A stretch of DNA of 64,000 bases, taken from NCBI GenBank assembly GCA_020438485.1, contig JAGQUM010000033.1, forward strand, positions 1-64,000. The letters run 5' to 3'. Position numbers and translations under genes: made by a program. Under the pieces are notes generated by a model. That model was not told the origin of the DNA, searched no databases, and saw only the letters and a list, made by a program, of their open reading frames with translations. Shown here piece by piece: positions 39,156 through 42,953 of this stretch; positions within the stretch are counted from its first letter, which is position 1, and every line of letters starts with the position of its first letter. The DNA is from Thermoleophilia bacterium. GTDB taxonomy: Bacteria > Actinomycetota > Thermoleophilia > Miltoncostaeales > Miltoncostaeaceae.

Positions 39156-39404
39156 GTGACAGCAGCCCCACGGGTGGCACGCTTGCTGGTAGTTCCGGAG
39201 CCTGAGCTCAATAGCGCTGCGGTGATAGACCTCATTGGACAGGTTCCGGACATAGCTCTGGGTGATCCTGACGACCCCACGCGCATGGTGTGCGGGGAGT
39301 GCGGGCGGACGCTTGCGGAAGGTGTTCCACTCAGATCGCTAGTAGGGATGCTCTTTCGCTGCCCTGAGGCGGCGTGCCGCGCCTACAACCGGGCTCTGGG
39401 CTAG
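39156..39404 (+). CDS. Small zinc-ribbon-like protein (low-GC segment)
   Basis: 82 residues. AAGGAGC lies 7 nt before GTG 39156, the best ribosome binding site in the window, and TAAACT (39117-39122) is a likely -10 box. The C-terminal half has CGECGRTL and CPEAAC, four Cys that could hold one zinc. The base composition is clearly lower in GC than the surroundings. The stop overlaps that of the convergent gene inside the palindrome CTAG (39401-39404). Function unknown; probably acquired. Confidence 0.72.
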   Translation: MTAAPRVARLLVVPEPELNSAAVIDLIGQVPDIALGDPDDPTRMVCGECGRTLAEGVPLRSLVGMLFRCPEAACRAYNRALG

Positions 39405-40177
39405 GTCACCGCTTCGCAATCACTGAGAATCCCCTGGGTAGCGAGATACATCTCCCATAGATCCTCCAGGAGCGGACCCGAACCACCCTCCAGAACGGGC
39501 ACGCACTGCACCTCACCGACGACGTGAAGGCGTAGGGGTTGTCCGACGAATGGCCGCAATGGCAAGCGGAGGATCTCGTCTCCGACCGAGATCGTCGAGC
39601 CGGCCCCCACGACTTCGGACGGGTGACTAACTTCCCAGTTTGTACGCAGGGTTGCGTGTGCGTCCAGCGCTTGATGAGACACCGAGACCGACACTCGGTG
39701 CTTGTCGGGGTTGGATTGGTCGCGCAACCGAGCGAGGGCGTCACCAGGCCTCGAGCCACTAAAGGGTTGAACATCGCGAATGGCTGCGAGGTGGGGATCA
39801 CCAACCCCAGGGAGCGCCTTCTTCGCTTTCGTCTCCCAAGTTGCGACGTCATCCACGATCGGGAAGTAGACGGCCTGCGGCCGGGTCAGAACTGGCGTGG
39901 CGCCGAGCGCTACGCACGCCCAAGCCAAGTGGTCCAAGCTCTGCCGAAGATTCCCCAGAACGTCACCCACGGTGGGAGGCAGGTCCGAGGGCACAGTTGG
40001 AAGCGACGCAATTCTCACGACAGCTTCAGTGGACTCTGCGTCGAACGAAACCTCGCATGAGGCAGCCCAACCGCCCCTGGCGCCCACGCGCGTGAGAATT
40101 CCCTTTAGCGACTGAAGGTGCTCGTATGCCCGAAGGTACTTGTGCCGCGCGCTCTCAAAGGGGTGAACGGTCGCCAT
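39401..40177 (-). CDS. Hypothetical protein with SLDHL and DKHR motifs (low-GC segment)
   Basis: 258 residues from ATG 40177. Helical N-terminal region with LRQSLDHLAWACVAL, middle region LARLRDQSNPDKHRVSVSV, and a beta-rich C-terminal part. The pairing of an (S)LDHL motif with a later (N)xDKHR motif is, from memory, a pattern of widespread accessory proteins of unknown function. Lower GC than its neighbours. It starts 5 nt after the stop of the deformylase-HD fusion, so it may be co-transcribed with it. Confidence 0.75.
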   Translation of the reverse strand: MATVHPFESARHKYLRAYEHLQSLKGILTRVGARGGWAASCEVSFDAESTEAVVRIASLPTVPSDLPPTVGDVLGNLRQSLDHLAWACVALGATPVLTRPQAVYFPIVDDVATWETKAKKALPGVGDPHLAAIRDVQPFSGSRPGDALARLRDQSNPDKHRVSVSVSHQALDAHATLRTNWEVSHPSEVVGAGSTISVGDEILRLPLRPFVGQPLRLHVVGEVQCVPVLEGGSGPLLEDLWEMYLATQGILSDCEAVT

Positions 40178-40182
40178 GCCCC

Positions 40183-41202
40183 TCAGCCCAGGGCCGCGTC
40201 GAGGGCGACCCACATGCGCGCGATCGCGTCAGGCGGGCATTCGCCGCGGTCGGCGTCGGCCAGCAGAGCGCGGAACACCGGCTGCTGGCCGCGGTACTTG
40301 TCCACTCGCGCGTCGCCCCGCCGCCGCACGTTGGCGATGCGGTCCGCCAGCTTGACGGCCACCGCGCCGGGCGTGACCGCGATGCGGCGCCACGAGTCCT
40401 CGTGGCCGCCGCCGTCCGCGTCGGGGTAGACGGTGAGGGCGTCGACCAGGTCGGCCACCCGCCGGCCGAAGTCGGGCACGAGGTCCTCGACCCGAACGGG
40501 CGTGTCCTCCACCGCGTCGTGCAGCCACGCCGCGGCCCGCAGACCCGGGTCGTGGACGCCGAACTCGTCCAGGACGCCGGCGACGTCCTCCAGGTGGATC
40601 GCGTACGGGCCGTGGTCTCCGTACCGCTGGCCGGCGTGCGCCACGCGGGCGAGCGTCTCGGCCCGCACGACCCGCGCCTGGGCGCGGCTGAGGCCCCTGC
40701 CGCGCCCGCCCGCCAGGCGCGGGAACACATCGCGGGCCAGCGACGCGACGCGGTCGAGGATGAGCACGCCGTCGAGGTGGTCGATCTCGTGCAGCAGCAC
40801 GCGCGCGTGGAACCCCTCGGCGCGCACCTCCACCGGCGCCCCTTCCAGGTCGAGCGCGCGCATGGTGATGCGCTCGGCCCTGCGGACGTTGGCCGTCACG
40901 TCCGGCAGTGACAGGCAGCCCTCCCGCCCCACGTCGGCCCCGTCGAAGCCCACCACGACGGGGTTGACGTACGCGGCGGCGGCCACCGCCGGGTCGCCCT
41001 TGGGGTGCCCGGCCTGGTCCACGTGGATCATGCGCCACATCGCCCCGATCTGGGGCGCGGCCAGCCCCACCGTGCCCGGATGGGCCGCGGCCGTGTCGCG
41101 CAGGTCATCGGCGAGCCGCCGCGCCGCGGCCCCCACCCGGGGCAGCGGCACGGCGGGCGTCTTGAGGCGACGATCGGGGAACTGAAGGACCGGGCGGATC
41201 AC
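40183..41202 (-). CDS. Peptide deformylase fused to a SpoT-like (p)ppGpp hydrolase domain
   Basis: 339 residues. Residues 1-160 are a complete peptide deformylase: GLAAPQ (46-51), EGCLS (94-98, metal Cys96) and HEIDH (138-142), which removes the formyl group from nascent proteins. After a basic hinge (163-180), residues 181-339 are an HD domain of the RelA/SpoT hydrolase type: AHAGQRY...GPYAIH (His203), HDAVED (His228-Asp229, Glu232-Asp233) and KLADRIAN (Asp287, Asn291). The spacing of HDxxED and DxxxN equals that of SpoT/MESH1 hydrolases. No synthetase, TGS or ACT domain is attached. It starts 19 nt after a tandem-ACT gene and is followed by a hypothetical 5 nt later. The frame is continuous through both domains. 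Confidence 0.93.
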   Translation of the reverse strand: MIRPVLQFPDRRLKTPAVPLPRVGAAARRLADDLRDTAAAHPGTVGLAAPQIGAMWRMIHVDQAGHPKGDPAVAAAAYVNPVVVGFDGADVGREGCLSLPDVTANVRRAERITMRALDLEGAPVEVRAEGFHARVLLHEIDHLDGVLILDRVASLARDVFPRLAGGRGRGLSRAQARVVRAETLARVAHAGQRYGDHGPYAIHLEDVAGVLDEFGVHDPGLRAAAWLHDAVEDTPVRVEDLVPDFGRRVADLVDALTVYPDADGGGHEDSWRRIAVTPGAVAVKLADRIANVRRRGDARVDKYRGQQPVFRALLADADRGECPPDAIARMWVALDAALG

Positions 41203-41221: not shown

Positions 41222-41752
41222 TCACAGGAGGTCCTCGTCCCACGGGGTGACGGCCAGTTCCACGCGGCTGCGCTCGGCCGTGGGGGCCAGCGCCACGCGA
41301 AGGGCCTCGGCGCTGAGCGCCGGAGGCAGATCCACCTCGACCGCCAGGGTGTAGATGGGCGGCGTGCCCACCGCACGCGACGACAGGTCGCGGATGTTGA
41401 CCCCGTGGGCGGCGAGGTCGCGCGCCACGGCGTGGACGATGCCCGGATGGTCGATGCCGTACACGGACACGACGCAGCGCTCCACGTCCTCGCCGGGCAT
41501 CGCCGGGGGCGGTGCGTCTCCCACCCACAGGCCCATGCCCAGGCGGTCGGCGTCCGGCTGCAGCGCGGCGCGCACGTCGCCGGCGGTGACGTCGTCGGGC
41601 ACCCGCACCAGCAGCACGATCGCGAACGACCCCCCGAGGATGGAGGCGCGGACGTCGTCCAGGTTCCCGCCGACCGCGACGAGGCCCCCGGTGAGGGCGG
41701 CGACGATTCCGGGACGATCGGCACCCATCGCGGTGACGGCGATCTCGCGCAT
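41222..41752 (-). CDS. Tandem ACT-domain protein (GcvR-like)
   Basis: 176 residues, two ACT domains: REIAVTAMGADRPGIVAALTG (1-80) and CVVSVYGIDHPGIVHAVAR (92-176). ACT domains bind amino acids. The closest well-known relative is GcvR, a regulator of glycine cleavage, but function is not proven by homology. No DNA-binding domain. First gene of a probable operon with the deformylase-HD fusion. TACTCT (41764-41759) ends 6 nt before the ATG, so the mRNA is probably leaderless. Confidence 0.9.
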   Translation of the reverse strand: MREIAVTAMGADRPGIVAALTGGLVAVGGNLDDVRASILGGSFAIVLLVRVPDDVTAGDVRAALQPDADRLGMGLWVGDAPPPAMPGEDVERCVVSVYGIDHPGIVHAVARDLAAHGVNIRDLSSRAVGTPPIYTLAVEVDLPPALSAEALRVALAPTAERSRVELAVTPWDEDLL

Positions 41753-41758
41753 TGCCCA

Positions 41759-41777
41759 AGAGTACCCCGGATAGGAT
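41759..41777. promoter_or_regulatory. Back-to-back leaderless promoters of the ACT gene and pgsA
   Basis: TACTCT on the minus strand (41764-41759) is 6 nt from ATG 41752, and TAGGAT on the plus strand (41772-41777) is 7 nt from GTG 41785. Only 32 bp separate the two start codons, so polymerase at one promoter must exclude the other, which may couple the two operons. Confidence 0.55.
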
Positions 41778-41784
41778 GAATCGC

Positions 41785-42342
41785 GTGAACGCCGCGCTCT
41801 GGGTCACCACCGTCCGCATCCTCGCCATCCCGGTGGTGATGGCGCTGATGCTGAGCGAGAACGAGCGCACCCGGTGGTGGGCGGCGGGCGCGTACGTCGC
41901 CGCGGCGGCGACGGACAGCCTCGACGGCTGGCTGGCGCGCTCGAGGGGGCAGGTCACGGTCGCGGGCGCGTTCCTCGACCCGCTGGCCGACAAGCTGCTG
42001 GTGACGGCAGCGTTCCTGGCGCTCATCGAGACGGGCGACGTGCCCGCGTGGGCCGTGATGGTGATCCTGACGCGCGAGTTCGCGGTCACCGGGCTGCGCC
42101 TGCTGGCCGTCAGCGAGGGGCTGGTGATCCCCGCGGCGGGGCTGGGCAAGGCCAAGACCCTCACCCAGAACCTGTCGATCCTGGCGTTCACCGTGCCACA
42201 CCCGTGGAAGTGGATCGACGATCCGCTGCTGTGGCTGGCGCTGTTCCTGACCATCCTCAGCGGCGCCTACTACTTCATCATGGCCCGGCGCCGCCTCACC
42301 GCGCGCCGATCGCCCGGCGCCGACATGTCAGGTGACCCATGA
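41785..42342 (+). CDS. pgsA: CDP-diacylglycerol-glycerol-3-phosphate 3-phosphatidyltransferase
   Basis: 185 residues. CDP-alcohol phosphotransferase signature DGWLAR...G...D...D is complete (DSLDGWLARSRGQ, then GAFLDPLADK). Makes phosphatidylglycerol phosphate from CDP-diacylglycerol; integral membrane, five to six helices. GTG 41785 fits the leaderless TAGGAT box; ATG 41776 overlaps that box and is less likely. The stop overlaps plsY (ATGA). Both genes act in phospholipid synthesis. Confidence 0.94.
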   Translation: MNAALWVTTVRILAIPVVMALMLSENERTRWWAAGAYVAAAATDSLDGWLARSRGQVTVAGAFLDPLADKLLVTAAFLALIETGDVPAWAVMVILTREFAVTGLRLLAVSEGLVIPAAGLGKAKTLTQNLSILAFTVPHPWKWIDDPLLWLALFLTILSGAYYFIMARRRLTARRSPGADMSGDP

Positions 42343-42953
42343 ACGAGGCCATCGCCGTCGCCGCCGCGTACCTGCTGGGCTCCATCCCGTTCGCGTACCT
42401 CGCGGGACGCATGAAGGGCGTCGACATCCGCACCGTCGGATCGAAGAACGTGGGCGCCACCAACGTGTTCCGCACACTGGGACGGGGCATCGGGATCACG
42501 GTGATGGCCCTCGACATCGCGAAAGGCCTGGCGGCCGTGCTGCTGGCCAAGGGGATCACCGACCCCCACTGGGACCTCGCGGCGGCCGCCGCAGCGATCC
42601 TGGGCCACGTGTTCCCCGTGTGGCTGCGGTTCAGGGGCGGCAAGGGGGTCGCGACCGCCGGGGGGACGATCCTCGCGCTTACGCCCCTCCCGGCCCTCAT
42701 CGTGCTGGTGATCTGGTTCGTGGTCATCGCGGCGACGCGCTACGTATCGCTGGGCAGCATCCTCGCCGCAATCGCGTTCCCGCCCCTGTTGATCGCGTTC
42801 AGGGAGCCGTGGGCCGTGCTGTTGTTCGGCACCGTCGCCGCCGCGGTGGTGGTGTGGAAACACCGGGCCAACATCCAGCGCCTGCGCGCCGGCAACGAAT
42901 TGCGGCTGGAGCTCGGGCGGCGGCCGGGACCCGGGGCGCCGCCACCGACATAG
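42339..42953 (+). CDS. plsY: Acyl-phosphate glycerol-3-phosphate acyltransferase
   Basis: 204 residues. PlsY makes lysophosphatidate from acyl phosphate. Three conserved cytosolic motifs: LLGSIPFAYL, GSKNVGATNVFRTLG (motif 1), RFRGGKGVATAGG (motif 2), and the third near YVSLGSI. Five membrane helices. It starts in an ATGA overlap with pgsA. The 253 bp after it (42954-43206) hold no gene or signal I can support. Confidence 0.95.
   Translation: MNEAIAVAAAYLLGSIPFAYLAGRMKGVDIRTVGSKNVGATNVFRTLGRGIGITVMALDIAKGLAAVLLAKGITDPHWDLAAAAAAILGHVFPVWLRFRGGKGVATAGGTILALTPLPALIVLVIWFVVIAATRYVSLGSILAAIAFPPLLIAFREPWAVLLFGTVAAAVVVWKHRANIQRLRAGNELRLELGRRPGPGAPPPT

Follow-up and report, generated by a model that had tools for sequence, protein, structure and literature searches.

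A peptide deformylase joined in one reading frame to an HD domain of the RelA/SpoT-hydrolase (RSH) superfamily was found in the window, the 64,000-nucleotide stretch of contig JAGQUM010000033.1 analysed in the present study. The host, a member of the class Thermoleophilia, is represented by a 2.58 Mb genome in 91 contigs that is 95% complete. This fusion is a real, conserved and new domain architecture combining two known kinds of enzyme. Herein, we propose, with a probability of about 0.45, that it is a lineage-specific fusion of a second deformylase with an RSH-superfamily HD domain, the latter acting as a Mn-dependent hydrolase of a 3'-(pyro)phosphorylated nucleotide near ribosomes. The features of the locus are as follows.

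40183..41202, minus strand: pdf-hd fusion gene, 339 aa, with GTG at 41202 and the stop codon at 40183-40185
40735..41199, minus strand: peptide deformylase domain, residues 2-156 (PF01327, E 3.8e-39; ligands C96, H138, H142)
40675..40722, minus strand: basic hinge, residues 161-176, where standalone orthologs end in a short basic tail
40186..40674, minus strand: HD_4 domain of the RSH-hydrolase superfamily, "QRYG" subfamily, residues 177-339 (PF13328, E 4.1e-11; phrog_990, 118 bits; tree; fold)
40603..40629, minus strand: alpha2/alpha3 loop Q192-R-Y-G-D-H-G-P-Y200, with Y194 and G195 at the positions of RelSeq R44 and K45
40504..40521, minus strand: H228-D-A-V-E-D233, metal and catalytic motif, its H, D, E and D invariant in 4/4 fusions
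40330..40353, minus strand: K284-L-A-D-R-I-A-N291, with N291 replaced by Arg in genome G001
41222..41752, minus strand: gene with two ACT domains of the ACT_6 type (Pfam ACT_6, E 1.2e-20)
41752..42342, plus strand: CDP-alcohol phosphatidyltransferase (pgsA-like), divergent, conserved flank (PF01066, E 6.6e-40; synteny)
42339..42953, plus strand: glycerol-3-phosphate acyltransferase (plsY), conserved flank (PF02660, E 5.8e-58; synteny)

First, the architecture described in an earlier note on this DNA, a deformylase and an HD domain in one open frame of 339 residues, was confirmed. Both Pfam domains were recovered from the product, Pep_deformylase at residues 2-156 followed by HD_4 at residues 183-298, together with the motifs GLAAPQ (46-51), EGCLS (94-98), HEIDH (138-142), PYAIH (199-203), HDAVED (228-233) and DRIAN (287-291); the GTG start codon is positioned as in relatives in the alignment. 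Orthologous fusions lacking a stop codon were present in three more genomes, with identities of 70% (G001), 61% (G006) and 62% (G015), over residues 1-338 in each case, and the fusion is therefore neither a product of chance nor an assembly join. A stop codon or frameshift in the hinge, which the earlier note had named as a refutation, was not seen in any of the four independent genomes of two genera, all of which have an open hinge. The full-length model reached a pLDDT of 94 and a pTM of 0.86, with the pLDDT falling to 73 in the hinge block at residues 161-170, and this pTM, read by itself and not with a PAE, suggests that the predicted domains are packed rather than freely flexing.

Second, the N-terminal half carries the complete deformylase active site that had been claimed for it, with the three motifs and the metal ligands of PF01327 enzymes as well as the Gln and Glu. 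The PF01327 match scored 134 bits against a cut-off of 22.8 and covered profile positions 1-154 of 156, the best PDB matches of the full-length fusion were all deformylases, and C96, H138, H142, Q51 and E139 were invariant among 20 aligned deformylase homologs. The first Gly of the E. coli deformylase motif G-x-G-x-A-A-x-Q is Thr in the fusion. The fused protein differs from the ordinary members of the family in its C-terminal HD domain, in its ACT-gene partner and in its status as a second copy, the genome holding a separate ordinary deformylase. The fused deformylase domain probably acts on nascent chains. The E. coli enzyme docks near the tunnel exit on ribosomal protein L22 via its C-terminal helix (PMC8712518). 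In the fusion, the HD domain follows this end of the deformylase, and against our proposal, a C-terminal fusion could obstruct the docking to the ribosome that it requires.

Third, profile, fold and tree agree that the HD domain truly belongs to the RelA/SpoT-hydrolase superfamily. The HD_4 profile (PF13328) matched with an E-value of 4.1e-11 and 43 bits (cut-off 27.2), and the best family was phrog_990, at 118 bits versus 43 for HD_4. The top 50 Foldseek PDB matches of the AlphaFold2 model of the domain (pLDDT 95) were all of the RSH type, comprising small alarmone hydrolases (SAHs), MESH1, RelH, Rel, SpoT and RelA. In a profile search with the HD domain and its relatives, MESH1 (1e-33), Rel (1e-31) and the small alarmone hydrolase 7p1y (4e-10) were retrieved; the same profile gave 3e-3 for an uncharacterised protein outside RSH and 0.75 for the degenerate RelA hydrolase domain. 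Because this profile includes one Rel sequence from the host genome and other HD_4 rows, it represents the family and not the fusions alone. In both profile and fold, the superfamily match exceeded that to other HD proteins.

The description of the domain as "SpoT/MESH1-like" could not be upheld. In a tree of 109 HD domains, computed by a quick method with SH-aLRT supports, with the P. aeruginosa SAH left out and with solved structures including 7qoe (Leptospira levettii SAH) and 7qoc (C. glutamicum RelH), the fusions fell inside a 35-member QRYG clade (support 99), a distinct and supported clade whose other members are standalone proteins of phage or scattered bacterial origin. Its members come from Nocardia, Photobacterium, Grimontia, Sphingomonas, a myxobacterium and genome G025, and 17 of the 35 come from viral contigs; none of its members was a characterised protein among those compared. 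Rel formed a separate group (support 99), and MESH1, Lmo0812, RelH and the Leptospira SAH were placed elsewhere, the fusion HD thus standing apart from Rel and five other solved members in the tree. Within the family, standalone HDs of this QRYG clade turned up in a single one of the genomes searched, G025, which has two (L035:6532-7002 and L036:6400-6948), 41% identical to the fused HD in the alignment.

Among the known systems, the small alarmone hydrolases (P. aeruginosa SAH 6yvc/6z3o, MESH1, C. glutamicum RelH and Leptospira SAH) have the fold in common with it, at TM-scores of 0.66-0.78 and ~21-28% identity, as well as the metal and catalytic residues. However, the fusion HD belongs to a clade apart from MESH1, RelH, the Leptospira SAH and Lmo0812 (the P. 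aeruginosa SAH being outside the tree), reads R-Y-G where their loop has R-K, and is joined to another enzyme. With the Rel/SpoT hydrolase domain it shares the superfamily and the motifs PYxxH, HDxxED and, apart from the Asn in G001, KxxDRxxN, whereas it is 33% identical to the Rel hydrolase domain of its own genome over the matched stretch, has no equivalent of Arg44 at that position and shows another spacing. The nearest relatives are the phrog_990 family, annotated as "metal-dependent phosphohydrolase", and standalone QRYG proteins from Nocardia, Photobacterium and phages, the Nocardia protein being 42-45% identical to the fusion HD. A C-terminal Y..E/Q...F stretch is common to most QRYG proteins, including the fusion HD, but in the loci examined these relatives are standalone, with no deformylase attached.

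The residue content of the HD active site bears most directly on what the domain might hydrolyse. The Mn site and the ED motif are present (H203, H228-D229, D287 and E232-D233), and neither these residues nor K284 and R288 vary among the four fusions. In an ungapped alignment, the Rel loop Q-x-R-K-x-G-x-P-Y reads Q-R-Y-G-D-H-G-P-Y, with Tyr194 at the R44 position, and the Arg-Lys pair (RelSeq R44-K45) is missing throughout the QRYG clade. Arg193, one residue before Tyr194, is invariant in the four fusions and, on its position, could substitute for the guanine-stacking Arg. The Asn of DxxxN is kept in three of the four fusions and is Arg in G001; since all three codon positions differ, this replacement is not a single-base error. 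Thus, the "full RelA/SpoT hydrolase set" announced in the earlier note stood as far as the PYxxH, HDxxED and DxxxN motifs are concerned and failed for the missing Arg-Lys pair and for the Asn in G001. Nor is the spacing that of SpoT, as had been stated: 58 residues separate the HD from the D-x-x-x-N motif here, versus about 66 in RelSeq.

These residues weigh on both sides of the reading that a true (p)ppGpp hydrolase sits on a deformylase and couples N-terminal maturation to the stringent response, which we regard as unlikely. Membership of the RSH superfamily and the retained catalytic residues speak for it, K284 and R288 among them, since the matching SpoT residues hold the 3'-pyrophosphate (PMC9974481), and Arg193 could replace the missing Arg beside it. 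However, Tyr-Gly occupies the Arg44-Lys45 positions, and hydrolysis is abolished by R44Q in RelSeq (PMC13299517) and by replacement of R45 with Ala in A. baumannii SpoT (PMC9974481). The Asn replaced in G001 corresponds to SpoT N147, which is essential (PMC9974481). Moreover, neither Rel nor MESH1 nor any other solved member that was tested belongs to the clade of the HD, and the Rel of this genome, a 745-aa frame, already carries both hydrolase and synthetase domains. The absence of the base-stacking Arg from its usual place and the loss of the SpoT-essential Asn in one fusion count against our own proposal as well, and the domain is at most a candidate ppGpp hydrolase.

It is conceivable, if unlikely, that the domain hydrolyses NADPH or another cofactor-like 3'-phosphonucleotide, a side activity of MESH1 thereby becoming the main one, and that the fusion is unrelated to the stringent response. 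Both MESH1 and XccSAH cleave NADPH (PMC9765508). The neighbourhoods of some standalone relatives point in the same direction: the Photobacterium gene (L072:4004-5509) adjoins NAD synthase and cytidylyltransferase-like genes, the Grimontia gene (L070:3992-5427) adjoins an NAD synthase gene, and in Caulobacter phage Ccr5 the HD gene is 2.5-4 kb away from nadM and NAMPT. However, different genes surround the Nocardia, Myxococcales and Nodularia phage relatives, the link is one of neighbourhood only, and the Ccr5 HD itself is not in the tree. The Ccr5 gene (L248:3908-8474) matches the HD hydrolase domain, and its annotation as GTP pyrophosphokinase, a synthetase, therefore looks wrong.

The two domains have not evolved at the same rate. 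In five of the six fusion pairs, the HD domain had a dN ~1.3-1.75 times as high as the deformylase, and in the sixth the two were about equal (range 0.94-1.75). This faster divergence weighs against our proposal, and the "tight conservation of both active sites" on which the earlier note relied was overstated to this extent. The dN/dS values lay between 0.17 and 0.62 over both domains, a rough estimate because synonymous sites have diverged; for the closest pair, G006/G015, they were roughly 0.17 for the deformylase and 0.30 for the HD. From these ratios, the HD appears to be kept by selection, less tightly than the deformylase. The faster drift of the HD, the Asn lost in one of the four fusions and the compact arrangement of the two domains in the predicted model would suit an HD that has lost catalysis and, in the manner of the inactive RelA hydrolase domain, serves to bind a nucleotide and to control the deformylase. 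This reading appears quite unlikely, however, as all four fusions keep the same His, HD, ED, Asp, Lys and Arg residues and the HD-family profile does not match the degenerate RelA domain.

With regard to distribution, the full fusion was observed in four genomes belonging to two genera (g1 and g6), in both of the two species of each, among 42 genomes of the family and 399 of the class. No further fusion was detected in the 395 other class genomes, in which the best five candidates per genome were scored, and among the best 80 HD relatives in the genome collection the only one was L057, which is the G006 contig. Phage and plasmid records contained no fusion and no match covering 80% of the query, and the viral contigs examined contained none either. 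In most other members of the family, the orthologous deformylase is standalone, with 164-179 residues, a short basic tail and the same neighbours; thus, the HD was joined to the C-terminus of a pre-existing second deformylase. The four fusions formed one group in the HD tree (support 100) and were not one clade in the deformylase tree, in which a single clade was not rejected (p-AU 0.317). Taken together, these sequence comparisons favour one fusion event, on the strength of the HD tree and the identical join, the deformylase tree alone being neutral. That two genes were joined by an assembly or annotation artefact, a concern with draft and mostly metagenome-type assemblies, is hardly credible, since four genomes that were assembled separately, two of them belonging to another genus, share the identical join with the expected flanks. 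The architecture, of which the earlier note knew no described example, indeed has no precedent in the literature searched, where no description of a deformylase fused to an alarmone-hydrolase-like HD was found.

A second HD_4 family (L037:7739-8536 and relatives), 266 aa long in its closest members, was observed in 27 of the 42 family genomes, none of which is one of the four that carry the fusion. The fusion might have taken over the role of this 266-aa protein; there are few evolutionary events to judge from, and some genera have neither.

The surroundings of the gene are conserved. The ACT gene lies upstream in the same direction, 19 nt before the fusion start codon, and the two are probably in the same operon. 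An ACT gene was found beside the deformylase in nearly all family genomes whose loci were read, the order being folE2-plsY-pgsA / ACT-PDF, with folE2 seen wherever the contig extends far enough. Outside this family, too, an ACT stretch adjoins the deformylase in one genome (L032). The literature found apparently contains no discussion of this ACT-deformylase module. The true start of the pgsA-like gene may lie slightly downstream of 41752. On the other side, the downstream gene (39401-40177, same strand as the fusion, ~258 aa) has no Pfam, NCBIfam or PADLOC match.

The hypothesis that we prefer, a second deformylase bearing a nucleotide hydrolase, can be described as follows. The second deformylase of the ACT-PDF pair would have gained a C-terminal HD in the line leading to the two genera, from an RSH subfamily otherwise standalone in phages and scattered bacteria. 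Its deformylase part would dock near the ribosome tunnel exit and remove formyl groups, and its HD part, dependent on Mn, would take the 3'-(pyro)phosphate off a purine nucleotide, which would thereby be destroyed close to translating ribosomes. Candidate substrates are (p)ppGpp, (p)ppApp, pGpp and NADPH; NADPH is among the several 3'-phosphorylated nucleotides cleaved by SAHs that have been characterised (PMC9765508). A role as the antitoxin of a toxSAS-SAH pair was considered and rejected, as no small alarmone synthetase was found in the genome; no RelA_SpoT synthetase domain other than that of Rel was found in this 95% complete assembly. No PADLOC match supported a defence system.

Deformylase and RSH enzymes have each been well studied, and a stable fusion of both was not found described. 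The link of the fusion to nucleotide signalling is plausible but unproven. There is a slim chance that it represents a ribosome-exit enzyme clearing an alarmone locally, such that ribosomes in the act of translation would erase the stress nucleotide in their vicinity, or that the nucleotide would gate deformylation. If the HD is active, the fusion would offer a natural means of testing whether the ribosome exit is a place where nucleotide signals are handled. Moreover, it points to a clade of alarmone-hydrolase-like proteins that is carried largely by phages and is apparently uncharacterised, and the substrate of which may differ from ppGpp.
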